Of a DNA stretch of 10,897 nucleotides, positions 1 through 10,897 are shown one piece after another. Position 1 is the stretch's first letter. The number at the start of each line of letters is the position of its first letter. Made by a program: the position numbers and the translations under genes. The notes beneath the pieces were generated by a model. That model saw only the letters and a list, made by a program, of their open reading frames with translations. It had not been told where the DNA came from and did not search any database. The DNA comes from Candidatus Argoarchaeum ethanivorans. GTDB lineage: Archaea > Halobacteriota > Methanosarcinia > Methanosarcinales > EX4572-44. Where the stretch lies: the NCBI GenBank assembly GCA_905067535.1, contig CAJHIR010000033.1, forward strand, positions 1-10,897. The letters run 5' to 3'.

Positions 1-1542
1 AATTTTATATTAAGGAGGGCTGCTGTAGAAACTGCCCACCTCTCTCACTATGAACGGATACGGATTGCTACTGAGGAGCTTGGACCAACTTTTGTCAAAT
101 TCGGACAGATGCTGAGCACAAGGCCTGATCTGGTACCACCTGACCTTGTCAGGGAACTTGAAAAGCTTCAGGAGAGTGTCCCTCAATTTTCTACGGAAAA
201 TGCCAGGCAGATTATTGAAGAAGAATTGGGAAGTCCTGTTGATCTGTTATTCAAAGATTTTGTGGATTCCCCTATTGCAGCCGCTTCTATTGCACAGGTG
301 CATAAAGCAGTGCTTCCGGAGGGCGATACTGTGGCAGTCAAGGTTCAGCGTCCCAATATTGATAAAATTATAGAAGTGGATCTGGAGATAATGCTTCACC
401 TTGCTGCGCTCGCAGAGAGACATTTCAAAGAAGCAGATGTTTTTGATCCTGTTGGAACGGTTAAAGAATTTGCTCGTGTAATCAGAAAAGAATTAAACTT
501 CAGACTCGAGGCTGCGAACATTGAGCATTTTTTAATTAATTTCAAATCTGACAGAACTATTCATGTTCCCCACGTATACCATGATTTGTCTTCAAGTAAG
601 GTCCTGACGATGGAGTTTATCGGTGGGTACAAAGTCTCTGAAATCACACGCATTAACCCGAAAGTTGTGGCTTCGCGAGGTTCGGACCTTGTTCTGAAAC
701 AGATATTTATAGACGGCTTCTTCCACGCGGACCCGCATCCGGGAAATATCAGAATCCTTGAAAATAATGTAATCTGCTTCCTTGATTACGGGATGATGGG
801 AGTGCTGTCGAAAGAACATCGAGAACGCCTGGCTGACATTCTCATTGGGATTATAACCAAAGACGCGAGCAAAGTAACTAAGACCCTCTTAGACTTAAGC
901 AAACATAAACAGGTTGAAGATGAAGATAGCGAAATTTTGGAGTCTGACATTTGCGAGCTTATCGAAATATACAGTGCCTGCCCACCCAACGAACTTGAAA
1001 TAGGAACTCTACTGCAGCACATCGGGGACGTGGTCATAGAATACCATCTGAAACTGCCAAGAGACTTCTATCTGCTTGCAAAAGCACTGGTAACAATCGA
1101 AGGTGTGGGGAGAGAACTTGACCCGGATTTTAGTGCAGTGGAACATTCTACTCCGTTTGCCAAAAAACTAATCAGGGAACGCATGAACCCTAAAAAGTTA
1201 ATAGAAGACTTTGTTAACTCTGCTCTCGAGGCACGCCTCTTGATGCGCGATCTACCCTTTGAGGTAAGAGAGATACTGAGGCTGACGAAGCGAGGTGAAG
1301 CAAAGATTAGATTTGAGCACGAAGGACTTGATCCAATGCTAAAAACGCTTGACCGGATTGCAAATCGCATGGTGTTTGCAGTTGTTTTAACTTCTCTTGT
1401 AATTGGTTCAGCCTTAATCGTTCTTTCAGGCATCCCGCCCAAATGGCATGAAATACCAGTTATAGGAATTGCTGGATTTCTGACAGCAGGAATGATTGGG
1501 TTCTGGCTATTATTTTTAATTATACGCCGTGAAAATATGTAG
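1..1542 (+). CDS. UbiB/ABC1 (AarF) family atypical kinase, 5' truncated by window edge
   Basis: The frame is open from base 1, so the first internal ATG (109) is not the true start: the codons before it encode the family's signature LGPTFVKFGQ, which runs straight into MLSTRPDLVPP. Numbering from the first visible codon (513 visible): KxGQ motif at about 33-36; Ala-rich nucleotide loop AAASIAQVH at about 93-101; VAVK lysine at about 114; conserved Glu in KELNFRLEA near 164; catalytic loop HADPHPGN at about 242-249; metal-binding LDYG at about 261-264 (DFG is usual). Two hydrophobic helices, about 457-478 and 485-508, make a C-terminal membrane anchor typical of this family. Bacterial and mitochondrial members support quinone biosynthesis through ATPase or kinase-like activity; the archaeal substrate is not known, so no symbol is given. 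A T5 run follows the stop at 1548-1552 and may help end transcription. Confidence 0.93.
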   Translation, partial: NFILRRAAVETAHLSHYERIRIATEELGPTFVKFGQMLSTRPDLVPPDLVRELEKLQESVPQFSTENARQIIEEELGSPVDLLFKDFVDSPIAAASIAQVHKAVLPEGDTVAVKVQRPNIDKIIEVDLEIMLHLAALAERHFKEADVFDPVGTVKEFARVIRKELNFRLEAANIEHFLINFKSDRTIHVPHVYHDLSSSKVLTMEFIGGYKVSEITRINPKVVASRGSDLVLKQIFIDGFFHADPHPGNIRILENNVICFLDYGMMGVLSKEHRERLADILIGIITKDASKVTKTLLDLSKHKQVEDEDSEILESDICELIEIYSACPPNELEIGTLLQHIGDVVIEYHLKLPRDFYLLAKALVTIEGVGRELDPDFSAVEHSTPFAKKLIRERMNPKKLIEDFVNSALEARLLMRDLPFEVREILRLTKRGEAKIRFEHEGLDPMLKTLDRIANRMVFAVVLTSLVIGSALIVLSGIPPKWHEIPVIGIAGFLTAGMIGFWLLFLIIRRENM

Positions 1543-1674
1543 ATTCGTTTTTAAGACTGTTTCGTACTTCATCAGGCGAGAGTACTGCAGAATAAAAGCG
1601 AGATTGAGGGGGGGGTTATGAGAAGATAGATATAAGGGAATTCACAAATAATGATTTACCATGGAACTGTATCA

Positions 1675-1710
1675 TTTTTCAGTTCTCTGCAATTTCTCTG
1701 CACTGAAAAA
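1675..1710. repeat. Inverted repeat with a nested direct repeat upstream of the phosphoesterase gene
   Basis: TTTTTCAGT (1675-1683) and ACTGAAAAA (1702-1710) are perfect 9-bp inverted arms. The 18-nt loop holds TCTCTGC twice (1684-1690 and 1695-1701). It lies 58 nt before the next start codon. It could be a hairpin or an operator; the sequence alone does not decide. The rest of the 1543-1768 spacer holds a run of eight Gs (1608-1615) and no convincing gene. Confidence 0.5.
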
Positions 1711-1768
1711 GCCATCTCACGATTTTGCACAAAAACAACCATAACTTACCCGAGCATGTTCATCAATT

Positions 1769-2224
1769 ATGAGCCTTGAAGACTATCGTAAAAAACGAGA
1801 TTTTAGCAAAACATCAGAGCCATGTGGCTATGAAGCACTCGTGCATCCAGCACCAATATTTGTTGTGCAGGAACACCATGCTTCACATTTGCATTATGAT
1901 CTTCGTCTGGAAATCGATGGTGTGTTGAAGAGTTTTGCCATTCCAAAAACACCGCCAATAGAACAGGGTATCAAACGGCTTGCTATTCAAACAGAAGACC
2001 ATCCACTCTCCTATGCAGACTTTGAAGGAGAAATTCCAGAAGGACACTATGGCGCAGGTACCGTGAAACAATGGGATAAGGGCGGACTTATAATCGAAGA
2101 AGTTAAAGAAAATGAAAAGATGTTGTTTGAACTGTCGGGCAGCAAACTTACAGGCAGGTATGCGTTAATTAAGACTAAATATGGCGGGAAAAGGAATAGC
2201 TGGCTCTTTTTTAAAAGAAAATAA
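1769..2224 (+). CDS. Stand-alone LigD-type 3'-phosphoesterase (PE domain protein)
   Basis: This 151-residue protein is a single PE domain. In bacteria the domain is the N-terminal part of the NHEJ ligase LigD, where it trims 3' ribonucleotides and 3' phosphates from DNA ends. All residues known to matter in the Pseudomonas domain can be aligned with correct spacing: His36, His42, Asp44 and Arg46 in the block QEHHASHLHYDLRLE, then His78 and Tyr82 in EDHPLSY. The GEIPEGHYGAGTV block (88-99) and a C-terminal GRYALIK segment (129-135) are also family hallmarks. No polymerase or ligase domain follows, as in other free-standing archaeal PE proteins. The ATG has no clear Shine-Dalgarno sequence, so translation may be leaderless. 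The neighbours do not point to a repair operon. A role in DNA end healing is inferred from the family. Confidence 0.9.
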   Translation: MSLEDYRKKRDFSKTSEPCGYEALVHPAPIFVVQEHHASHLHYDLRLEIDGVLKSFAIPKTPPIEQGIKRLAIQTEDHPLSYADFEGEIPEGHYGAGTVKQWDKGGLIIEEVKENEKMLFELSGSKLTGRYALIKTKYGGKRNSWLFFKRK

Positions 2225-2244
2225 TGCGTAAAAACCGGTGGATA

Positions 2245-2272
2245 TGCTTTGCGCACTCGATTGCTTTGCGCA
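2245..2272 (+). repeat. Direct repeat TGCTTTGCGCA, two copies
   Basis: TGCTTTGCGCA occurs at 2245-2255 and 2262-2272, 17 nt apart, each followed by CTCGA (the second after one extra A). It directly abuts the palindrome at 2274. The element lies in the 155-nt gap between the phosphoesterase and cobD genes. Function unknown. Confidence 0.6.
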
Positions 2273-2273
2273 A

Positions 2274-2294
2274 CTCGACTACTTCGTAGTCGAG
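2274..2294. repeat. 21-nt perfect palindrome, variant type (arm CTCGACTAC, loop TTC)
   Basis: A 9-bp arm CTCGACTAC, a TTC loop and the exact complementary arm give a very stable small hairpin. Its centre ACTTCGT is shared with the other palindromes in this window, but the outer arm differs. Both strands fold. It could terminate or protect the transcript of the phosphoesterase gene, or bind a dimeric protein. Confidence 0.7.
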
Positions 2295-2310
2295 AGTTCC
2301 GGGTTTATTT

Positions 2311-2331
2311 CTGCACAACGAAGTTGTGCAG
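2311..2331. repeat. 21-nt palindrome, CTGCACAAC type (copy 1, reverse orientation)
   Basis: The arm CTGCACAAC is followed by GAA and the complementary arm. This is exactly the reverse complement of the three copies at 4691, 4760 and 4796, which carry TTC in the loop. It sits 16 nt before the TATA-like box of cobD, so it could mark the end of one transcript or act near the next promoter. Confidence 0.8.
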
Positions 2332-2346
2332 GCTCGAAAGATTGGG

Positions 2347-2354
2347 TTATATAT
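2347..2354 (+). promoter_or_regulatory. Probable TATA box for the cobD-cbiB transcript
   Basis: TTATATAT is centred about 29 nt upstream of the GTG start at 2380. With archaeal box-to-start-site spacing, transcription would begin within a few bases of the start codon. Together with the lack of a Shine-Dalgarno sequence, this suggests a leaderless or nearly leaderless mRNA. Confidence 0.5.
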
Positions 2355-2379
2355 GTAGAGAGCACACTAAAGACTTCCT

Positions 2380-3810
2380 GTGACAGAAACTTGTGATGAT
2401 TATGCAGACAATCTTCGTGAAGAGATTGTTAGGTTAACGCCGTGTGTTCATGGAGCAAGACTTAAAGAAGCTTCAGATCACACAGGCATACCAAAATCAG
2501 AACTTCTTGATTTTAGCAGCAACCAGAACTTACTGCATATAGATATAACAGAATCACTCACAAAAGCCTGTAAATATATTAACCGGTATCCTGATAGCGA
2601 ATATACGCAGTTTCGGGCGACTGCCGCTGATTTTGCAGGCGTGTTTTCTGAAAATATCATACCAGGCAACGGTTCAACGGAATTGATACGTCTGTTTGCA
2701 GAAACAGTGATCAAACCAGAAGATATCGTTATCATCCCAGTTCCAACATTTGGGGAGTACGAGAATCAGTGCAGGTTGATGGGTGCAAATATTATTCATC
2801 AAAAGTATGAAGAAATGCTTACAATTACCGATAAACAGCTTTCAGGCGTCAAGGCGGTGTTTGTGTGCAACCCGAACAATCCAACTGGCACACTGATAGA
2901 ACGTGAACAACTCATCACTCTTGCTGACAGGTGTGCAAGAAAGAAAGTGTTTCTATTCATGGATGAAGCATTTATCGAGCTGTCAGACCCGGGATATAGC
3001 ATAGCTACCCATGTACTGGACTGTGAGTTTCTATTTGTCCTTCGCTCTCTTACCAAAGCCTTTGCAGTACCTGGGCTTAGAATTGGTTTTGGTGTTGCAC
3101 CAATTACGCTTGCAAAATATATGAATGTTGCAAGGCTTACCTGGAACCTCAACTGCATAGCTGATACAGTAGGAGAATGGTTATTAAAACATGGCAGCAA
3201 GTTTATTCACAATTCCAGAGACGCGATTAAGGCAGAACGGGAATGGTTCCATGCACAACTTGCACACATCCGTGGTTTTAAACCACTGCCAAGTCAAACA
3301 AATTTTATACTTGTAGATACCAGCGATTTCCCACTCACTGTAGCAGAACTTGCAAAGAGACTTCTTTTAGAAGGTATTGTAATTCGGGATTGCGCGTCTT
3401 TTGGACTTGAAAACCATATTCGCCTTGCAGTGCGTACCCACAAAGAAAATATTACATTAATTCAAGCAATTGAACAAACATCAATGGAATGGGGTGAGAA
3501 AATTGGAAAAAAATCACTTAACGCTGCAATTAAACAGGGACAAACTGCAAACAGTCGTGTCAGCTGCCCATTTTATCCCTGCCACTTCGAGGGGCAGGAT
3601 TGTACCTTCTGTTTCTGCCCATTCTATCCATGTGAAGATACACGAACAGGGGGTGAATACATTAAACGTGCAAGTGGAAGTAAAGTATGGAGCTGCATGA
3701 ACTGCCACCTTGTACACAAACCAGAGGTAGCATCGAAGATACTTGATGAATTGTTAAAAGGCAGTGATGTCAAAGAAGCGTGGAAGCGTGTGATGGAGCC
3801 ATTGTTGTGA
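2380..3810 (+). CDS. cobD: L-threonine-O-3-phosphate decarboxylase (CobD) with Cys-rich C-terminal domain
   Basis: This 476-residue PLP enzyme is in the class I/II aminotransferase fold. CobD decarboxylates threonine phosphate to (R)-1-amino-2-propanol phosphate, the linker of the cobamide nucleotide loop. Visible signatures: DFSSNQN (44-50), CNPNNPTG (163-170), MDEAF (194-198), the Schiff-base lysine in SLTKAF (Lys226), and Arg348/Arg352 near the domain end. After about residue 390 comes an extra domain of about 85 residues with eight cysteines (396, 401, 408, 411, 413, 418, 439, 442), including two CPFYPC units. It looks metal-binding. The Methanosarcina mazei homologue with such a tail has been reported as bifunctional, also phosphorylating L-threonine; transfer of that activity here is inference. 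The start is GTG. The stop overlaps the next gene's start by 4 nt, so the two are translationally coupled. Confidence 0.93.
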   Translation: MTETCDDYADNLREEIVRLTPCVHGARLKEASDHTGIPKSELLDFSSNQNLLHIDITESLTKACKYINRYPDSEYTQFRATAADFAGVFSENIIPGNGSTELIRLFAETVIKPEDIVIIPVPTFGEYENQCRLMGANIIHQKYEEMLTITDKQLSGVKAVFVCNPNNPTGTLIEREQLITLADRCARKKVFLFMDEAFIELSDPGYSIATHVLDCEFLFVLRSLTKAFAVPGLRIGFGVAPITLAKYMNVARLTWNLNCIADTVGEWLLKHGSKFIHNSRDAIKAEREWFHAQLAHIRGFKPLPSQTNFILVDTSDFPLTVAELAKRLLLEGIVIRDCASFGLENHIRLAVRTHKENITLIQAIEQTSMEWGEKIGKKSLNAAIKQGQTANSRVSCPFYPCHFEGQDCTFCFCPFYPCEDTRTGGEYIKRASGSKVWSCMNCHLVHKPEVASKILDELLKGSDVKEAWKRVMEPLL

Positions 3811-4724
3811 ACACGGTGTTACTATTAATACTACTTGGAGCAGTGGCTTTCGACATAATAATAGGTGAACCGCCAAGAAGACTGCACCCTGTCGTATGGA
3901 TGGGAAAAATCATACATCTGCTTGAGAAGCATGCACCACAAAATAATAGAGCACTTTACGGAGCAGCAATGACTCTTATAACAATCACACCTTTCGCAAT
4001 AGCAGGTATACTTCTCACCCGAACAAATCACATATTTGCAATTATTGCTTCCATTTATCTACTAAAATCAACTTTCTCTATTAACATGCTCTTTGGCTCT
4101 GCAAAAAAAATAGAAGACCAGCTCAAACACGGAAGAATTGAAACAGTAAGAAGTGAACTTCGCACTCTTGTAAGCAGGGATACCAGTAACCTCAATGAAA
4201 CAAAAGCCACGTCAGCAACAATCGAGTCAGTTTCGGAAAATTATGTTGATGGCATCCTCACACCCATGTTCTACTTTGTACTCTTCGGACTGCCGGGAGC
4301 TCTTGCCTACAAAGTTGTCAACACACTCGATTCAATGGTAGGATACAAAAAGCCACCGTACCGGCAACTTGGCTTCGTTCCGGCCAGGGTTGATGATTTT
4401 CTCAACTACATTCCAGCACGCATATCAGCACTGATCATAGCACTGGTATCCAATAATCCAGCAGCAACACTGAGATGTGCTCTCAATGAACACATAAAAA
4501 CACCTTCACCAAACTCTGGTTGGCCAATAGCGGCAACAGCCTGTGCCCTTGGAATCACACTTGAAAAACCTGGTACATACATTCTAAACAACGAAGCAGA
4601 CACACCAGAACCAGATCGCATCACTCAGGCAGTCACACTGATAAAAAAAGCAACAGTGGTAAGTATTGTAGCAGTTATAATTCTGCTCTACTGCACAACT
4701 TCGTTGTGCAGAATTAACTTTTGA
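3807..4724 (+). CDS. cbiB: Adenosylcobinamide-phosphate synthase CbiB
   Basis: CbiB is an integral membrane enzyme that joins adenosylcobyric acid to aminopropanol or its phosphate, the step directly after CobD. Motifs in the 305-residue protein: an N-terminal membrane helix (1-19), GEPPRRLHPVVWMG (20-33), ATIESVSENYVDGILTPMFY (137-156), NTLDSMVGY (172-180) and SPNSGWPIAA (234-243). Several hydrophobic segments (about 53-90, 152-170, 202-214, 281-295) fit the family. I place the start at GTG 3807, in the GTGA overlap with the cobD stop. GGAG at 3795-3798 lies 8 nt upstream, and family members begin just before the first helix. An in-frame GTG at 3780 is less likely. The last ten or so residues (tail CTTSLCRINF) are encoded by a copy of a palindromic repeat, so the native C-terminus seems to have been replaced or extended. 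Confidence 0.93.
   Translation: MNTVLLLILLGAVAFDIIIGEPPRRLHPVVWMGKIIHLLEKHAPQNNRALYGAAMTLITITPFAIAGILLTRTNHIFAIIASIYLLKSTFSINMLFGSAKKIEDQLKHGRIETVRSELRTLVSRDTSNLNETKATSATIESVSENYVDGILTPMFYFVLFGLPGALAYKVVNTLDSMVGYKKPPYRQLGFVPARVDDFLNYIPARISALIIALVSNNPAATLRCALNEHIKTPSPNSGWPIAATACALGITLEKPGTYILNNEADTPEPDRITQAVTLIKKATVVSIVAVIILLYCTTSLCRINF
4691..4711. repeat. 21-nt palindrome, CTGCACAAC type (copy 2), inside the cbiB 3' end
   Basis: The arm CTGCACAAC, loop TTC and complementary arm lie in codons 295-301 of cbiB, 13 nt before its stop. The sequence is identical to the copies at 4760 and 4796. A short T run (TTTT, 4719-4733 area) follows, so it could double as a transcript-end hairpin. Confidence 0.85.
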
Positions 4725-4759
4725 TTGCATCCTCTGATGATTCTTGATTGTAAATAGCA

Positions 4760-4780
4760 CTGCACAACTTCGTTGTGCAG
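4760..4780. repeat. 21-nt palindrome, CTGCACAAC type (copy 3)
   Basis: Identical to copies 2 and 4. It lies between the convergent genes cbiB and Fae-Hps, 69 nt after copy 2 starts. Copies 2-4 are each followed, 4-5 nt later, by TAAC. ATTCTTGATTG occurs at 4740-4750 and again at 4830-4840, exactly 90 nt apart, so a longer unit may have duplicated. Confidence 0.85.
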
Positions 4781-4795
4781 AGACTAACCTAACAA

Positions 4796-4816
4796 CTGCA
4801 CAACTTCGTTGTGCAG
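4796..4816. repeat. 21-nt palindrome, CTGCACAAC type (copy 4)
   Basis: Identical to copies 2 and 3, starting 36 nt after copy 3. Spacing between copies (69, 36) is irregular and the intervening sequences are short and AT-rich, unlike a CRISPR array. Confidence 0.85.
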
Positions 4817-4832
4817 AAAATAACCAGTAATT

Positions 4833-4854
4833 CTTGATTGCGTCAGCAATCAAG
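4833..4854. terminator. Hairpin just past the Fae-Hps stop codon, possible transcript end
   Basis: CTTGATTGC (4833-4841) and GCAATCAAG (4846-4854) are perfect 9-bp arms around a GTCA loop. The hairpin begins 1 nt after the stop of the minus-strand Fae-Hps gene. No long U run follows on the minus strand, so transcript stabilisation or 3' end processing is as likely as termination. Confidence 0.45.
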
Positions 4855-4855
4855 T

Positions 4856-6058
4856 TCAGAAATCGGTCATTATGCGGTACTGGTCAATTTCTGGTTTTTT
4901 CATGTGTTCGAGGAATTGCTCTGTCTTGAGTCTTACATCTTTTGCTTTAGTAATATCCCGACCGACTACAATAATATCTGCACCTGCTGCAAGAGCCTCG
5001 TCTACAGTATGATCGCTTGGTTTTAGTTTATCTATACGTATGCCCCCAGCGACTGCCACAAGTATTTTTCCTGATATTTTCTTGATTTTTTGTATGCTGT
5101 CCCAACCTGTTGCAACCGTGTTCTCAAGGTCTATAGCCCTGTGCAATTCAACGATGTTTGGCTTTACAGGGAGATTGTCTATCAGCCCTGCCGCATCTTT
5201 CACATTTAACATATCAATGACTGAATAAACACCTGTTTTTTTGGCTTCTTTAATTGCTTTTTCAATCGTCGATGTTGGGGCAAGACCTGAAATTACCACT
5301 GCGTCTGCTGTTGCATCTGCTGCCATGCGGACTTCAAGATTGCCAGTATCAAGAGTTTTTAGATCTGCCACAATAAACGGATTATTACGTGCTTCACGTA
5401 TTTTCTCTATAACATCCACACCATATCGTTTGATAAGCGGTGTTCCTGCTTCGATTATCAGATGATCGCTTTGTGGCATCTCTTTTAGTATTTGCTGTAC
5501 GTAGTCTATATCAGGTACGTCGATTGCTACCTGCAGGTACGGCGGGTCCCAGAGCCTTGTCACCTTAAAGCCCATTACAGGGTGCGCTGCCCTATTCTTT
5601 TCATCCAGCACCGTATTAATGCTTGGAAATTGTTCCATTGCCCTCTGTATTGCAAGCTTGGTTGCACCATAATTGTATCGATATATCTTGCTGTAATCTT
5701 TAGCATCAGGGTGTATGAATACACTTGCAATTACCACCCACTCTTCTGCTTTATCCTGTGGTATCAGTTCTTCTTCCACGGCATCTGCTATTGCAAGTGC
5801 CACAGCATTCTGGGCAGGACCAAAGATCTGGTTTACCTGCTCTGTTTTTTTCATTGTTACCTTTGGCACAATGAGAGTTGCTGGCTTAGTTAAAAGATTT
5901 GGCCGTATTACAGACAGTACAGGTGTGTGACCTGCCGACAATTGTGTCATGCCTGCTGCAAAGGCACTGCCCACCGGGCCATTTTTGTCGCCTATCACCA
6001 GGTCGATGTGTGCAAGTTCCGGTGCCGATCCAATAAGTGCTTCTCCTATTAAAAACAA
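4856..6058 (-). CDS. fae-hps: Bifunctional formaldehyde-activating enzyme / 3-hexulose-6-phosphate synthase (Fae-Hps)
   Basis: This 400-residue fusion has two domains. Residues 1 to about 160 are Fae, which condenses formaldehyde with tetrahydromethanopterin to methylene-H4MPT. Its marks are the start FLIGEALIG, His17 in ELAHIDL (the proposed catalytic His), [13 protein letters not shown] (43-55) and IFGPAQ (78-83). Residues about 172-390 are Hps, an orotidine-decarboxylase-like barrel with AIDVPD (178-183), the DLKTLD acid-lysine-acid motif (232-237), VAVAGGIR (334-341) and the phosphate site [11 protein letters not shown] (359-369). In archaea lacking the oxidative pentose route, Hps runs in reverse to make ribulose 5-phosphate and Fae traps the released formaldehyde. 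The start is TTG at 6058, chosen because family members begin at this point and AGAGGT lies 9 nt upstream (6073-6068). The length is usual for the fusion. It converges on cbiB and lies just downstream of the tRNA gene. Confidence 0.95.
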
Positions 6059-6094
6059 GATTGTAAAACCTCTATAACCTGAATAGGCTGTAGA

Positions 6095-6109
6095 GTATTT
6101 ATTTATTTC
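6095..6109 (-). promoter_or_regulatory. Probable promoter of Fae-Hps
   Basis: On the minus strand the A/T-rich stretch GAAATAAATAAATAC resembles a BRE/TATA element. Its centre is about 43 nt before the TTG start, which predicts a short leader just long enough to hold the AGAGGT ribosome site. Confidence 0.45.
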
Positions 6110-6126
6110 GCATCGAATTTGATGCG
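6109..6126. repeat. Short inverted repeat at the tRNA 3' end
   Basis: CGCATC (6109-6114) and GATGCG (6121-6126) pair around a six-base loop. The second arm includes the discriminator and first acceptor base of tRNA-Arg. It may be a 3' processing or termination structure of the tRNA transcript, or chance. Confidence 0.3.
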
Positions 6127-6198
6127 GGCTCGCCGGGATTTGAACCCGGGCTTCAGGCTCCGGAGGCCTGTGTGCTATCCAGACTATACTACGAGCCC
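6125..6198 (-). tRNA. tRNA-Arg (anticodon CCG)
   Basis: Read on the minus strand: acceptor arms GGGCTCG (6198-6192) and CGAGCCC (6132-6126) pair fully. The anticodon stem CAGGC/GCCTG encloses the seven-base loop CTCCGGA, giving anticodon CCG for CGG arginine codons. The T arm CCGGG-TTCAAAT-CCCGG is canonical, and A14, G15, G18, G19 and A21 are in place. The D stem GTAT/GCAC is weak, with an A12-C23 mismatch and a U-G pair. The discriminator is G (6125). CCA is not encoded and no intron is seen. It is 66 nt upstream of Fae-Hps on the same strand. Confidence 0.93.
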
Positions 6199-6323
6199 AA
6201 TTTCAGTGGACAGTGGTTTGTTGCTATCAGTCACGATCAGGTTTTTTTTTCGAATTCTCTAAAGGACTATAAAAACAAAACCCAAACTTTGCCAGTCTTT
6301 CTGTCGCAATACAACTCAATAAT

Positions 6324-6467
6324 TCAAAGAACCAGTTGAATCGCTTCTTTAATAGTTTTTAGGGTATCTTCTATTGTATCCCCCTCACTTATCGCAGCAG
6401 GAAGCTCAAGACATTGAGCAGTATATCCTCCTTCGTCGAATTCTTCAAGTTTAATTGTAAATTGCAT
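6324..6467 (-). CDS. Small HicB-like (UPF0150) protein
   Basis: This 47-residue protein starts MQFTIKLEEFDEGGYTAQC and continues with ELPAAISEGDTIEDTLKTI. This is the partial RNase H-like fold of HicB antitoxins and UPF0150 proteins: the strand-turn-strand YTAQCLELP, then SEGDT and an amphipathic helix ending EAIQLVL. It stops right after that helix and lacks the DNA-binding C-terminal domain of full HicB. No HicA toxin gene is visible next to it, so it may be an orphan antitoxin, a remnant or a housekeeping UPF0150 protein. There is no Shine-Dalgarno sequence before the ATG. A TTTAAAT box is about 27 nt upstream, which predicts a leaderless mRNA. Confidence 0.8.
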   Translation of the reverse strand: MQFTIKLEEFDEGGYTAQCLELPAAISEGDTIEDTLKTIKEAIQLVL

Positions 6468-6490
6468 GTTTAATTATTGAGTCTGTAATT

Positions 6491-6497
6491 ATTTAAA
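6491..6497 (-). promoter_or_regulatory. Probable TATA box of the HicB-like gene
   Basis: TTTAAAT on the minus strand is centred about 27 nt before the ATG at 6467, the distance expected if transcription begins at the start codon. Confidence 0.45.
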
Positions 6498-6735
6498 CGT
6501 ATGTGTTTAGCTGATATAAAAACCATGAGAGTTCACAAGATTAACCCAAGAAATTGGAATTAATATGGGACAGAGTAGTAATGAAGTCATTGCATATTGA
6601 TTTTTCGATAAATCAGTTGCACAGATGCTAAAATTGAATATTTCGATGGTTTGAAAGATTTGATGGGTTGATAGGTACCTGAATAATTACAAAAAATATT
6701 GTTTTCTTTTTGTAACGGTTTATCATGCGTTATAT
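6498..6735. other. AT-rich intergenic stretch without a recognisable gene
   Basis: Both strands are broken by stops. Short ATG frames at 6526 (12 codons) and 6565 (11 codons) have no ribosome site and no recognisable product. It lies between the divergently transcribed HicB-like gene and the reductase operon and may hold upstream control sites, but I see no clear operator. Confidence 0.5.
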
Positions 6736-6766
6736 CGAAACTCTTAAATACAGAGCGTATATAAAT
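6736..6766 (+). promoter_or_regulatory. Promoter region of the reductase operon
   Basis: Two overlapping-range boxes are visible: CTTAAATA (6743-6750), preceded by CGAAAC (6736-6741), which looks like a BRE; and GTATATAAA (6757-6765). They are 14-15 nt apart and could set two start sites, near 6772 and 6788. Either gives a leader of about 110-130 nt before mcrB, which is long for an archaeal mRNA. Confidence 0.6.
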
Positions 6767-6783
6767 GGTATCTGTTAAGAACC

Positions 6784-6898
6784 ATGAATTGAGCAGATAT
6801 GGAATCTTGACAAACGAACACCTCCTTGATAATTGTGTTCCATGCCATGGAAGCTTGACGATGGTTTCTTAAAAAATTAAAAATGGAGGAAAAAATAA
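6784..6898 (+). promoter_or_regulatory. Structured 5' leader of the reductase operon
   Basis: The leader contains an imperfect 13-nt direct repeat, ATGGAATCTTGAC (6799-6811) and ATGGAAGCTTGAC (6847-6859), 48 nt apart. TTCCAT (6838-6843) can pair with the ATGGAA of either copy: downstream with a 3-nt loop, or upstream with a 33-nt loop. Each repeat is a three-codon frame ending in TGA. CCTCC (6821-6825) is complementary to the mcrB ribosome site GGAGG (6885-6889), which is 9 nt before the ATG. TATCTG/CAGATA (6769-6774/6794-6799) could form another stem. Regulation by alternative folding is inferred only. Confidence 0.4.
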
Positions 6899-8302
6899 AT
6901 GGCCTATCTAACTGAAAAAATAGATCTATACAATGATAGAGGTCAGGTAATAGAATCCGGCATTCCGCTGGAAGCTATAACACCTGTCCAGAACCCAGCC
7001 GTTAGAGAGATTGCAGATACTTTTAAACGCTCTATAGCAGTAAATCTTGCAGGTGCCCAGAAGGCACTCTCAACCGGACACTATGCTAACGAGTATATCC
7101 ATCTACCTGATATACCAAACAAAGCAGATTTACCAATAAAGAGCGGTCCGTATGGCAAGCCAAAAGCAGTAAGAACACGCACATGGGATGTACCCTTAGT
7201 TGATAATGCAGACAAACTTGCAGCTAAACTTAAAGATAAACTGCAGGTCGATGCAGGCGATGGTACAGTAGTTAACATAATGAAAAAAGGTGCCATGTTC
7301 TATGTTAAGCCATCCGAGAAGCTGTGCACCGCTGGTATTGAATATACCGCTGCACTTACAGCAACTGCCCAGGCAATGACCGATCTTGTGATGGAAGAGT
7401 TTGGTGACATACTTGACTTCCATGCAGCACCACTGGTACATACAGCATTCTATGGCAGATACCCCTCAACTTATGAATTCATGGGTGGAAATGTCATTTC
7501 ACTACTTGCAGCAAGCTGTGCTAACGAAGGCCCAGGATTTTCCCTACGAAACCTGATGGTAAACCATATTGTAGCTATAACACAAAGAAGAACGATGGAA
7601 TCAATGGCACTCAGCTCAACCCTCGAAGCTATTTCCCACCTTGAAATGGGTGATGCAATCGGTCGATGGAGACGCTGGCAGTCTCTCGTGTATGCATACC
7701 AGGGATTAAATGCCAATAATATTGTATACGACCTTGTAAAGGAATGCGGAAGCGGCACCACAGGTGATGTGGTCGGAGCACTAGTTGGAAGAGCACTCGA
7801 AGATAAGGTTATCAAAGTGCTTAAGACACTCCCATCTGGATATAAGTTTTACACTGCACTTGATCCGTCGCTGTGGAATGCCTATGCTTGCGCAGGAACA
7901 TCAGCAGCAGTTATTGTCAACCAGGGTGCAGCAAGAGCAGCACAGGGTGCTGGTTCAACAATTTTGTACTTTAACGACATGCTCGATCATGAGACAGGAC
8001 TGCCATCCGCAGGATATGGTGATGCTATTGGTAATGGTATCGCGCTGTCCTTCTTCAGCCATTCTATCTATGGTGGAGGAAGCCCGGGTGTGTTCCATGG
8101 AAATCATATTGTAACCAGGCACTCCAAAGGATTTTTGATACCTGCATTAACAGCGGCAGTAGCACTTGATGCAGGCACAGCAGTATACGGACCTGAGGCA
8201 ACATCAGGACTTGTAGGAGATATATTTGGTGAAATAGATCTTATTAGAGAACCAATGGAATCGGTTGCAAAATCAGCAGCAGAAATAAAGGATAAGTTCT
8301 AA
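6899..8302 (+). CDS. mcrB: Alkyl/methyl-coenzyme M reductase beta subunit
   Basis: The beta subunit of the 2:2:2 F430 enzyme that makes or cleaves alkyl-S-CoM with coenzyme B. It has 467 residues, against about 443 in methanogens. The extra length is mostly a loop at about 60-96 (from HYANEY to VRTRTW) with no match in the methanogen subunit. The core is well conserved: GPGFSLRNLMVNHIVA (211-226), LVYAYQGLNANN (263-274), WNAYACAG (326-333), NQGAARAAQG (341-350) and the active-site stretch SFFSHSIYGGGSPG (384-397). Phe385, Ser389 and Tyr391 match Phe361, Ser365 and Tyr367 of the Methanothermobacter enzyme, and His403 matches His379. GGAGG is 9 nt upstream of the ATG. It is first in the operon; the next gene begins 13 nt after its stop. 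No mcrD or mcrC follows, unlike methanogens. Confidence 0.97.
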   Translation: MAYLTEKIDLYNDRGQVIESGIPLEAITPVQNPAVREIADTFKRSIAVNLAGAQKALSTGHYANEYIHLPDIPNKADLPIKSGPYGKPKAVRTRTWDVPLVDNADKLAAKLKDKLQVDAGDGTVVNIMKKGAMFYVKPSEKLCTAGIEYTAALTATAQAMTDLVMEEFGDILDFHAAPLVHTAFYGRYPSTYEFMGGNVISLLAASCANEGPGFSLRNLMVNHIVAITQRRTMESMALSSTLEAISHLEMGDAIGRWRRWQSLVYAYQGLNANNIVYDLVKECGSGTTGDVVGALVGRALEDKVIKVLKTLPSGYKFYTALDPSLWNAYACAGTSAAVIVNQGAARAAQGAGSTILYFNDMLDHETGLPSAGYGDAIGNGIALSFFSHSIYGGGSPGVFHGNHIVTRHSKGFLIPALTAAVALDAGTAVYGPEATSGLVGDIFGEIDLIREPMESVAKSAAEIKDKF

Positions 8303-8315
8303 GGAAGTGATAAAA

Positions 8316-9164
8316 ATGGCAAAATATGAAAGACAATACTATAATAAAGGAGACCAGATCGCTCGAAACAGGCAGCGAATCCTGGATCCAAAGACAAAAC
8401 TTGAAAAGCTTCGAACGATACCAGATGAAGGTTTTCTCAGCATACTTGGGCACAGGAACTTTGGAGAAGCATATAAAGCTGTGCACCCGCCACTAAGTGA
8501 GCTTGGTGAGCCAGAGGATCCAATGCGAGATCTCGTACCACCAACAGAGGGAGCAAAAGCAGGTGATAAATTGGATACCCTCGTTATGACAGATTCGGTC
8601 TATGATTCCCCAATCGCAGTATACCTGCGTGCATGGATGCTGCATAACAGAGCTCGCGGTCTTGATACAGGCTGCTACTCCGGTCGAAACACGATTGAGA
8701 TGAGAGCCCGGGACCTTGAAGATATAGGCAGGATGCTACTTGAAACAGAGGTATGCGATGTAAGAAGAAACCACCTTCGCCAGATGACATGCACAGGACA
8801 CAGCTGCCGACTTGACCAGGACGGTTTGATGTTTGATGCAATGCGTCGAACAAAGATGGAAGGCACAGATGTCGTATATGTCAAAAGCGGTTTTGGTATT
8901 TCAATTGATAAACCAGTCAATATTGGTAAAGGGGTTTCAGATGAAGAACTTAAAAAGAGATCTTCGATCTACCGATATGATAACATACCAAATCTCGTGC
9001 TTGAAGATGTGGTCGATCCTAAACCAGATGAAGAGATGAAGGAGACTACCCAATGGGGCAGACGAATCATGCGCCAGAGATTATATGGAAATCTGAATCC
9101 GGAGTTAATCAAAGAAGATGCGTATGAAAACCTTGAACAATTAGAACTGAAACCAAGATACTGA
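8316..9164 (+). CDS. mcrG: Alkyl/methyl-coenzyme M reductase gamma subunit
   Basis: The gamma subunit has 282 residues; the methanogen form has about 249. Aligned blocks: LGHRNFGEAYKAVHPPLSE (44-62), GAKAGD (79-84), the YSGRNTIEMR block (121-130) whose Arg124 matches Arg120 of the Methanothermobacter enzyme (near the coenzyme M sulfonate), and TGHSCRLDQDGLMFD (160-174). From about residue 220 the protein departs from the family and carries a charged C-terminal extension of about 30 residues (from NIPNLVLEDVVD to the end KPRY). I chose ATG 8316 rather than GTG 8307: the sequence GGAAGTGAT (8303-8311) is a near-perfect ribosome site and includes that GTG, and MAKYERQYY matches the usual N-terminus. 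15 nt separate its stop from mcrA. Confidence 0.95.
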   Translation: MAKYERQYYNKGDQIARNRQRILDPKTKLEKLRTIPDEGFLSILGHRNFGEAYKAVHPPLSELGEPEDPMRDLVPPTEGAKAGDKLDTLVMTDSVYDSPIAVYLRAWMLHNRARGLDTGCYSGRNTIEMRARDLEDIGRMLLETEVCDVRRNHLRQMTCTGHSCRLDQDGLMFDAMRRTKMEGTDVVYVKSGFGISIDKPVNIGKGVSDEELKKRSSIYRYDNIPNLVLEDVVDPKPDEEMKETTQWGRRIMRQRLYGNLNPELIKEDAYENLEQLELKPRY

Positions 9165-9179
9165 AACGAGGTGAAAAAT

Positions 9180-10897
9180 ATGAGTCAAACTCGAACAAGC
9201 AAAGAAAATACAGTAGTAGAAGAGGGAAAGTACTGGAATCCTCATGCTGTTGAAGGACACATTGAAAAGGGAAAAACGTGGGAACGTATGTCGATACGTG
9301 ATGACTGCGGAAATATGTTTAAAAGTAAGTTTGGTGATATAGACTTTACAAGCAAGAATACAGAGTACTACAGATTCAATGGCATAATGCAAAGCAAGAG
9401 AAAATCAGAAGCATGGGAAATTGCCAAACGAATCACCAGGGAAAGAGGAATACCAAACTACAATCCAGACCTTCACCTGCACGGCGTCCAGATGGGGCAG
9501 AGAATGCTCCAGACCTACAAGATAACAGGTCTTGAGCGCGAGTGGGCTGGTTCTGAAGATACGCCAACACATCCAGGATGGGTGCCAGGTACTGGTATCT
9601 ATGGTATTGAGATGGATGATGTCAACTATGAAAACAATATGGCTATGCAGCAGTCACGTGATGACATCTCTCGAACATCGATTAACGGCATGAACATTCC
9701 TCACGAGACTATAGAGAGACGTTTCGGTAAAGAAGTAACACCAGAGACCATCAACACCTATATGGAAATGCTCAACCACAACCTTGGAGCAGGTGCTCTT
9801 ATCCAGGAACATGTTACAGAGACAAACCCGGAACTGGTCAAAGACTGCTACGCCATCATGTTTACAGGTGATGACGATGTGGCCGATGCCATTGATCCGT
9901 GCTTTATTACTAACATAGACACACACTTTCCTGAGTACCAGGCTGTTCAGCTAAAAGACCAGATCAAAGACAAGATATACCAGGTCTGCCGCATACCAAC
10001 GATGGCACTGCGTACATCAGATGGTGGTCTGGCAAGAGCATGGGTAGGACAGCAGGCAAGCCTTGCCTTTGTTGGCGCCTATGATATTCCAGCAGGTGAT
10101 GCAGTTACCAGTGACTTCGTGTTTACAATCAAACACGGCGATGTAGTATTCACTGGAACAGCACTTCCATACAGACGTGCACAGCGTGTGAACTCGATTG
10201 GCGGCGTGCCTTACGGCTATTACGCAGATATCTGCCAGTCAAGCAGAACTCCTGAAGCTATAAAGGGATTAGACGGCGGAATTGATCCTGTTAAAGTAAC
10301 GGTTGAAGCTCTCACACCAGGATGCGTTCTGACAGACCAGGGTTGGCTTCATAACTACTTAGCAGGCGGTTCGTCAAGCTGGGCAAGTTATGTTATGTCA
10401 GTCTACACCGATGAAGTACTTGAAGATCCATCGTACTATGGTGCTGACTGGGGAATGCATCACTTCAAGTGCGGTGTCGGGGAAGTGCCAAACACACTTA
10501 AAAACGGCATGCAGATAGCAGAGGTAGTTGGACAACACTTCCTTGCAAGCTATGACCTGTATCCGGCAATGTGTGAAACACACTTTGGTGGAAGCCAGAG
10601 ATTCCTTCTCCAGTGTGCCGCTATTGGCGCAGCAACAGGTTGCCTCACAGGAGACACTGACCTTGGACAGACCATGTGGATGTACAACACCCACATACAG
10701 AAAGAACACTGCATGAGACTTGGTTTCTATGGGCATGATATGCAGGATCAGATGGGATGCGGACACAATGCTTCATACCGTTCAGATCAGGGTAGCCCGT
10801 ATGAGCTTCGAAACATGAACTTCCCTGACCAGGCAATGCATGTAGGACACGTAGGCGGATACGTCGGTATCTGTGGAGGATCAGCACACGCGAGAGG
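9180..10897 (+). CDS. mcrA: Alkyl-coenzyme M reductase-type alpha subunit (McrA/AcrA), 3' end beyond window
   Basis: The catalytic alpha subunit; 572 codons are visible and the C-terminus is cut by the window edge. GAGGTGA lies 5 nt before the ATG. By ungapped blocks against Methanothermobacter McrA: Gln209 = Gln147 (nickel lower ligand), His319 = His257, Arg332/Arg333 = Arg270/271, Tyr404 = Tyr333, Gln473 = Gln400, Phe516 = Phe443, Gly518 = Gly445 (thioglycine site), Asp523 = Asp450. Differences: Trp401 replaces Phe330 after a one-residue insertion, Met525 replaces Cys452, and the canonical WYLSMYLHKE reads WMYNTHIQKE (500-509). There is an N-terminal extension of about 38 residues, an insertion of about 24 around 118-142 (REWAGSEDTP to GTGIYG), and one of about 8 near 357-370. 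These traits set it apart from methanogen and ANME enzymes and favour an ethane or longer alkane substrate. The substrate itself cannot be read from sequence. Confidence 0.93.
   Translation, partial: MSQTRTSKENTVVEEGKYWNPHAVEGHIEKGKTWERMSIRDDCGNMFKSKFGDIDFTSKNTEYYRFNGIMQSKRKSEAWEIAKRITRERGIPNYNPDLHLHGVQMGQRMLQTYKITGLEREWAGSEDTPTHPGWVPGTGIYGIEMDDVNYENNMAMQQSRDDISRTSINGMNIPHETIERRFGKEVTPETINTYMEMLNHNLGAGALIQEHVTETNPELVKDCYAIMFTGDDDVADAIDPCFITNIDTHFPEYQAVQLKDQIKDKIYQVCRIPTMALRTSDGGLARAWVGQQASLAFVGAYDIPAGDAVTSDFVFTIKHGDVVFTGTALPYRRAQRVNSIGGVPYGYYADICQSSRTPEAIKGLDGGIDPVKVTVEALTPGCVLTDQGWLHNYLAGGSSSWASYVMSVYTDEVLEDPSYYGADWGMHHFKCGVGEVPNTLKNGMQIAEVVGQHFLASYDLYPAMCETHFGGSQRFLLQCAAIGAATGCLTGDTDLGQTMWMYNTHIQKEHCMRLGFYGHDMQDQMGCGHNASYRSDQGSPYELRNMNFPDQAMHVGHVGGYVGICGGSAHAR

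Follow-up and report, generated by a model that had tools for sequence, protein, structure and literature searches.

Which alkane is activated by the reductase encoded at the end of a 10,897-nucleotide stretch from Candidatus Argoarchaeum ethanivorans (assembly GCA_905067535.1, contig CAJHIR010000033.1, positions 1 to 10,897; hereafter the window)? At positions 6899-10897, three genes of the methyl-coenzyme M (CoM) reductase superfamily follow each other in the order beta-gamma-alpha (BGA), the alpha gene being truncated at the window end. With a probability of about 0.95, this operon encodes the alpha2-beta2-gamma2 ethyl-CoM reductase (ECR) of a member of the Ca. Argoarchaeum ethanivorans group (GoM-Arc1), an enzyme that would form ethyl-CoM from ethane. 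The initial annotation had proposed a divergent alkyl-CoM reductase and, provided that it is the only reductase in the genome, a short-chain alkane oxidiser. The first proposal is borne out by the data below, and the second can be sharpened, with their support, to an ethane oxidiser of the Argoarchaeum group. As the enzyme is needed for anaerobic ethane oxidation at seeps, a correct assignment fixes the likely metabolism of the contig organism. The finding itself is an ordinary ECR operon from a group of organisms already described; the enzyme too is known, and the new details are small.

The assignment is carried by features observed directly, namely homology, operon order, phylogenetic place, ECR-type insertions and a Trp at the position of the canonical active-site Phe. 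In agreement with the initial annotation, all three subunits belong to the methyl-CoM reductase family: the positions of the open reading frames (ORFs), Pfam and NCBIfam all indicate McrB-, McrG- and McrA-like ORFs in one operon, with neither mcrC nor mcrD between the beta, gamma and alpha genes. Among solved structures, 7b1s, the ECR of Ca. Ethanoperedens thermophilum, was the best match for alpha, beta and gamma (857, 813 and 339 bits; runners-up 426, 444 and 223). The alpha subunit is 69.1% identical to this ECR versus 44.7% to M. marburgensis. Searching genome contigs with alpha returned seven loci in six genomes, with 98% identity to Ca. Argoarchaeum ethanivorans Eth-Arch1 (RPGO01000005, locus L001); by subunit, identity to Eth-Arch1 is 97.9% for alpha, 97.9% for beta and 96.8% for gamma. 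The DNA of the window matches that of L007, an A. ethanivorans single-cell contig, in conserved order (96.5% over 1-4685 and 97.4% over 4795-9905), and this matched span of 1-9905, minus a 110-base gap, places the contig in the A. ethanivorans group. Identity to L001 is 96.6% over 6561-10897 and 93.8%, inverted, over 2288-6289. The records of L001 and L007 both carry the name Ca. Argoarchaeum ethanivorans.

Consistent with these matches, alpha falls into the GoM-Arc1 ECR clade in two trees. In a tree of 48 rows (mixture model), which are a subset of the 100 rows of the alignment, the window groups successively with L001-L003 (100/100), the Ethanoperedens-type rows (99/96), the environmental rows P0003-P0005 (100/98) and the P0040 group (100/100); 21 canonical-type rows and 14 other AcrA rows lie on the opposite side. 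The 100-row tree has the same branching order, with supports, as printed after midpoint rerooting, of 89 for the five-row Argoarchaeum-type clade, 100 for GoM-Arc1 and 99 for GoM-Arc1 plus P0003-P0005; no root was inferred for the trees. Left out of both were L055-L065 (11 loci with ORFs below 480 amino acids), the partial L006 and L007 and matches without a fetched locus, while L008-L015 are duplicates or come from genomes already represented. The classes 'canonical', i.e. of the type found in methanogens and anaerobic methanotrophic archaea (ANME), and 'other AcrA' were set from position in the 100-row tree plus residues, and the 71 canonical rows include many near-copies. Rows gL053 and gL054 sit next to the canonical rows on a long branch and were counted among them; they have Val at alpha 400, the ANME-1 residue according to PMC9118554. 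Although titled Ca. Ethanoperedens thermophilum, the L003 record shares 92% DNA identity with the mcr region of the window, and its alpha branches with Argoarchaeum, away from L004 and L005.

The features of the operon and its upstream region, all on the plus strand, are as follows.

6713..6727, plus strand: putative upstream promoter element TAAYGGTTTATCRTG, 15 bp; common to 7/7 loci.

6743..6752, plus strand: putative TATA box CTTAAATACA, about 150 bp ahead of the mcrB start; identical in 7/7 aligned upstream regions.

6886..6890, plus strand: ribosome-binding site GGAGG of mcrB, from the sequence; kept in 7/7 loci.

6899..8302, plus strand: beta subunit of ethyl-CoM reductase (McrB/AcrB type), 467 amino acids; 813 bits to 7b1s_B over residues 1-467; PF02783 and PF02241.

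8316..9164, plus strand: gamma subunit (McrG/AcrG type), 282 amino acids, ATG start, with a possible GTG start at 8307; 339 bits to 7b1s_C; PF02240.

9180..10897, plus strand: alpha subunit (McrA/AcrA type), ATG start, of which the window covers residues 1-572 out of about 640; 857 bits to 7b1s_A and 98% identity to L001.

9180..9287, plus strand: alpha N-terminal extension, 36 residues ahead of the next Met; from comparison of five Argoarchaeum-type loci.

9534..9596, plus strand: first alpha insertion, 21 amino acids, EREWAGSEDTPTHPGWVPGTG, alpha residues 119-139; from the alignment.

10257..10283, plus strand: second alpha insertion, AIKGLDGGI, alpha residues 360-368, net gain of 8 amino acids; from the alignment.

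10380..10394, plus strand: active-site loop Trp401-Ala402-Ser403-Tyr404-Val405, aligned with Trp373-Ser374-Asn375-Tyr376-Ile377 of 7b1s.

Full-length relatives of alpha have 640 amino acids (P0001) or an open frame of 645 (L001).

The extra sequence that had been noticed in each subunit is real and comprises two insertions in alpha, about 22 amino acids in beta and a mainly C-terminal addition in gamma. The first alpha insertion (+21 amino acids after M. marburgensis residue 77) is present in the window and in 9/9 other GoM-Arc1-type rows, including 7b1s_A. Elsewhere, this site holds 0-1 extra amino acids in 71/71 canonical rows, none in 14/14 other AcrA rows and 8 in P0003-P0005 and the P0040 group. 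The second insertion (+8 after M. marburgensis residue 298) recurs in 8/9 other GoM-Arc1 rows, P0006 having -6, and in P0003-P0005; the site measures +4 in the P0040 group and -1 to 0 in the 71 canonical rows. A length of +15 or +16 in four of the 14 other AcrA rows speaks against the second site as a strict ECR mark. In beta, the additional residues are located at 59-84 relative to canonical chains. Gamma, with 282 amino acids, exceeds the 266 of 7b1s and the 246-279 of the other listed solved chains except 9ecn (321); most of its extra length is C-terminal, extending 14-16 residues beyond Ethanoperedens-type chains. Ethanotroph-specific insertions in alpha and beta have been described, the ECR insertions being placed at the tunnel entry (PMC9118554) and tied to the mouth of a 33 Å ethane tunnel (PMC9118554; PMC9081873). 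Within the group nearest to ECR plus P0003-P0005, the alpha subunits of P0040, P0043 and L044 (the latter an open frame) reach 733-746 amino acids owing to about 180 extra N-terminal residues.

The alpha active site was likewise correctly described as altered where canonical enzymes hardly vary. Of 147 near-invariant columns, defined by at least 97% agreement among the 71 canonical rows, 37 differ in the window, including R225A, F330W and N481H (M. marburgensis numbering). Counted from the table, 20 of these departures match the 7b1s residue, nine are canonical in 7b1s and eight differ in both, differently. Trp401 provides the Trp for canonical Phe330 in an ECR-type active-site loop, and the residues W373, Y376, F441, C354 and H491 of 7b1s are all kept in the window alpha, as are the insertions and Ala259 at canonical Arg225 of the E. 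thermophilum enzyme (7b1s, 7b2c). Cys382 and His519 of the window align with Cys354 and His491 of 7b1s, which we take to carry methyl-Cys and N2-methyl-His (the residue types fit the alignment). The E. thermophilum ECR differs from the window at Met181/Gln209, Gly372/Ser400, Asn375/Ser403, Ile377/Val405 and Asn526/His554; in addition, the alpha N-terminus and the gamma C-terminus are longer in the window, and the alpha C-terminus is also longer in P0001. The roles of the active-site loop, Trp373, Asn375 and Tyr376 in ECR have been described (PMC9081873). The environmental sister lineage P0003-P0005 (64-66% identity) shares the Trp/Cys/His signature and the 8-residue second insertion with the window. 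In contrast, its first insertion has 8 rather than 21 amino acids, and where Argoarchaeum has Gln, Ser and Val it retains Met, Asn and Ile. This lineage was not found in the six GoM-Arc1-family genomes examined.

Could the operon nevertheless come from a methanogen or ANME archaeon and encode a canonical methyl-CoM reductase whose divergence is only apparent? Such an enzyme shares the superfamily and the subunit set with the window, and Gln400, Gly445, Asp450 and Tyr333 (M. marburgensis numbering) are conserved. However, alpha stands apart from the methanogen and ANME rows in the trees, none of the 71 canonical rows (0/71) has both insertions, and neither insertion occurs in any of them. Tree and insertions refute this possibility, the lower identity to M. 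marburgensis also speaks against it, and we regard its probability as negligible. A reductase for propane, butane or longer alkanes, of the Syntrophoarchaeum type, would also branch apart from the canonical rows, and the 15-16 additional amino acids at the second insertion site in four of the 14 other AcrA rows could be taken in its favour. Yet these 14 rows form a separate clade (100/100), are 34-36% identical to the window in the three cases compared, and have Ala, Gly or Thr where the window keeps M. marburgensis Tyr333. Moreover, PF00441 (acyl-CoA dehydrogenase), the one beta-oxidation enzyme searched for, was matched in 0/6 related genomes versus 9/14 controls. An ethane oxidiser would not be expected to carry beta-oxidation genes. 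The tree, the insertions and the identity values make the propane/butane assignment very improbable, and it is rejected.

A third alternative retains an ECR-type enzyme and supposes that the Argoarchaeum form accepts a substrate range unlike that of the crystallised enzyme, e.g. by tolerating methane or propane, because its tunnel and F430 contacts are changed. Indeed, 5/5 Argoarchaeum-type rows have Val at Ile377, Ser at both Asn375 and Gly372, a Gln Ni ligand and His at canonical Asn481. But the A. ethanivorans culture makes ethyl-CoM from ethane (PMC9118554), the A. ethanivorans type metagenome-assembled genome (MAG) has the identical residues, and PF00441 is unmatched in the relatives. An altered range is unlikely, though less so than either of the other two alternatives.

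Several points weigh against the assignment to ECR. ECR has been described with an insertion in gamma (PMC9081873), and the window gamma has no clear internal insertion relative to 1e6v_C and 3sqg_C. Residues of the crystallised ECR are changed in the window (Met181 to Gln209, Asn375 to Ser403 and Ile377 to Val405), and these changes weaken a one-to-one transfer of the 7b1s crystal structure to the window enzyme. As they are shared by the type MAG of A. ethanivorans, they are no argument against ECR as such. Evidence for a single reductase and for the pathway comes from six relatives of unstated completeness, and activity, cofactor (dimethyl-F430 in ECR) and modification are not readable from a sequence.

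The changed residues show which features of the 7b1s structure cannot be general. All five Argoarchaeum-type rows (window, L001, L002, L003 and P0001) have Gln, Ser, Ser and Val for Met181, Gly372, Asn375 and Ile377, positions at which the four Ethanoperedens-type rows and P0003-P0005 hold the 7b1s residues. His for canonical Asn481 is found in all five rows and also in P0002. Ile377 of 7b1s is presumably the methyl-isoleucine site. This site and the Met Ni ligand of 7b1s are absent in the window (Val405, Gln209), L001-L003 and P0001; because A. ethanivorans itself is without both, neither defines an ECR. Gln as Ni ligand in A. ethanivorans is already in print (PMC9118554). The accessible parts of the literature on methylisoleucine and methyl-CoM reductase, alignment figures excluded, do not mention Argoarchaeum at the methyl-isoleucine site, and we do not claim that its state is unreported. 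Overall, the difference between the Argoarchaeum and the crystallised ECR at F430/tunnel residues (Ser for Asn375, Val for Ile377) is possibly a new, small detail.

On the tree, the distribution of the Met/Gln ligand takes two changes with a return to Gln versus three for independent gains of Met. Since both P0003-P0005 and the P0040 group hold Met, the more parsimonious history is a return to Gln in Argoarchaeum, although a saving of one change favours it weakly. It may be, with slightly less than an even chance, that ECR exists in two forms: an Argoarchaeum form that went back from Met to Gln as axial Ni ligand and replaced methyl-isoleucine and Asn375, and an Ethanoperedens form with isoleucine methylation as its own, perhaps heat-linked, trait and not a general need. 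The extensions of the Argoarchaeum termini would then be real parts of a cold form.

An N-terminal extension of 36 residues in the A. ethanivorans alpha has been called suspicious (PMC9118554). In 5/5 Argoarchaeum-type loci (window, L001, L002, L003 and L007) its start codon, spacing and frame are kept without an indel, and the alpha start is preceded by AGGTGA in four of them and by GGGTGA in L002. We lean towards a real extension because the start is fixed, the spacing kept and indels are absent; the codon pattern gives no support, with 9/19 variable sites at position 3 (P 0.15, not significant) as compared to 43/55 in the alpha core. The predicted structure of L001 alpha had a mean predicted local distance difference test score (pLDDT) of 60.5, with residues 1-70 under 50, and was therefore not used for inference.

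Upstream of mcrB, the 15-bp element is present in 7/7 GoM-Arc1 sequences from two genera (window, L001-L005 and L007), with no second copy on either strand of those seven loci or of 400 kb of the Eth-Arch1 genome. The DNA flanking this element and the TATA-like box otherwise aligns poorly between the two genera. Together, the two motifs form a putative mcrB promoter, and the element shared by 7/7 loci is possibly a new, minor detail.

For the cofactor, tunnel, reaction and downstream pathway, we rely on the characterised relative and on published cultures. By analogy, the enzyme would carry a Ni-F430 type cofactor that ethane would reach via a hydrophobic tunnel, its mouth built by the insertions, and would convert ethane and CoM-S-S-CoB to ethyl-CoM and HS-CoB. 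The ethyl unit would become acetyl-CoA, which CO dehydrogenase/acetyl-CoA synthase together with reverse methanogenesis would then oxidise, and the electrons would go to a sulfate-reducing partner. Chen 2019 is reportedly the paper on the A. ethanivorans culture and Hahn 2021 that on 7b1s. Ethyl-CoM was detected in cultures of A. ethanivorans and E. thermophilum, which have a single methyl-CoM reductase homologue per genome (PMC9118554), and Ethanoperedens cells offered mixed alkanes formed only ethyl-CoM (PMC7175092).

Copy number and pathway were examined in the six related genomes rather than in the window's own. Each of the six contains one mcrA (in G006 in two pieces), from which we infer that the window operon is probably the sole reductase of its genome. 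CdhC of CO dehydrogenase/acetyl-CoA synthase and AOR-family proteins are encoded in 6/6 genomes and McrC in 5/6. McrD, unlike in methanogens, was found in 0/6 with two models, both of which match in two methanogen controls; one of the models, run on 26 genomes, matched 18, the misses beyond the six relatives being G308 and G214. In line with this, mcrD homologues are described as lacking in ANME-1 and alkane-oxidising archaea (PMC9584954), and a text search of PMC9012536 for mcrD and mcrC gave no hits. According to PMC7175092, GoM-Arc1 has no beta-oxidation pathway and oxidises ethane via acetyl-CoA; the gene content of the relatives agrees with this route.

The mcrA of G006, a single-cell genome, is split: residues 1-242 are on the L007 contig, and residues from 258 on lie at the start of another contig. 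This is probably one gene broken by single-cell amplification or an assembly chimera, the alternative being a real inversion. Past alpha residue 242, L007 10727-14009 contains DNA that is inverted in L001 at 16635-19025, with an ORF resembling elongation factor 2 by eye.

On the minus strand, window 4856-6058 encodes a fused formaldehyde-activating enzyme/hexulose-6-phosphate synthase (fae-hps); among its neighbours are genes for CbiB, a LigD phosphoesterase-type protein and a CobD-type decarboxylase whose tail is Cys-rich. An Rfam search of the window found nothing but a tRNA. A 47-amino-acid ORF at 6324-6467 (minus strand) looked like a HicB-type antitoxin by eye, a reading set aside as residues 1-45 had no Pfam match. 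Eth-Arch1 L001 has the same operon, insertions, extensions and promoter element as the window; it differs in the block of cobD, cbiB, fae-hps and tRNA-Arg (window 2288-6289, L001 1-4053), whose orientation to the mcr operon is reversed in Eth-Arch1 and as in the window in L007.

A dispersed hairpin, CTGCACAACTTCGTTGTGCAG, is located in the window at 2311-2331, 4691-4711, 4760-4780 and 4796-4816. Exact copies number 85, 50, 49 and 58 in four Argoarchaeum-type genomes and 0 in two Ethanoperedens-type genomes, the reversed control also giving 0. In 400 kb of Eth-Arch1 we counted 67 perfect hairpins versus 5 after block-wise shuffling, many of which have stems of related sequence around a GAA/TTC loop, and 57 of the 67 lie outside mechanically called ORFs, which cover 81% of the DNA. 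Y1 transposase family matches occur in 6/6 related genomes, above cut-off in five; any tie to the hairpin would be conjectural. One copy, at window 4691-4724, falls within the 3′-terminal part of the cbiB frame, where it codes for residues close to the end of CbiB. At the hairpin cluster between cbiB and fae-hps, L007 (4775-5630) has about 0.75 kb extra compared with window 4686-4794.

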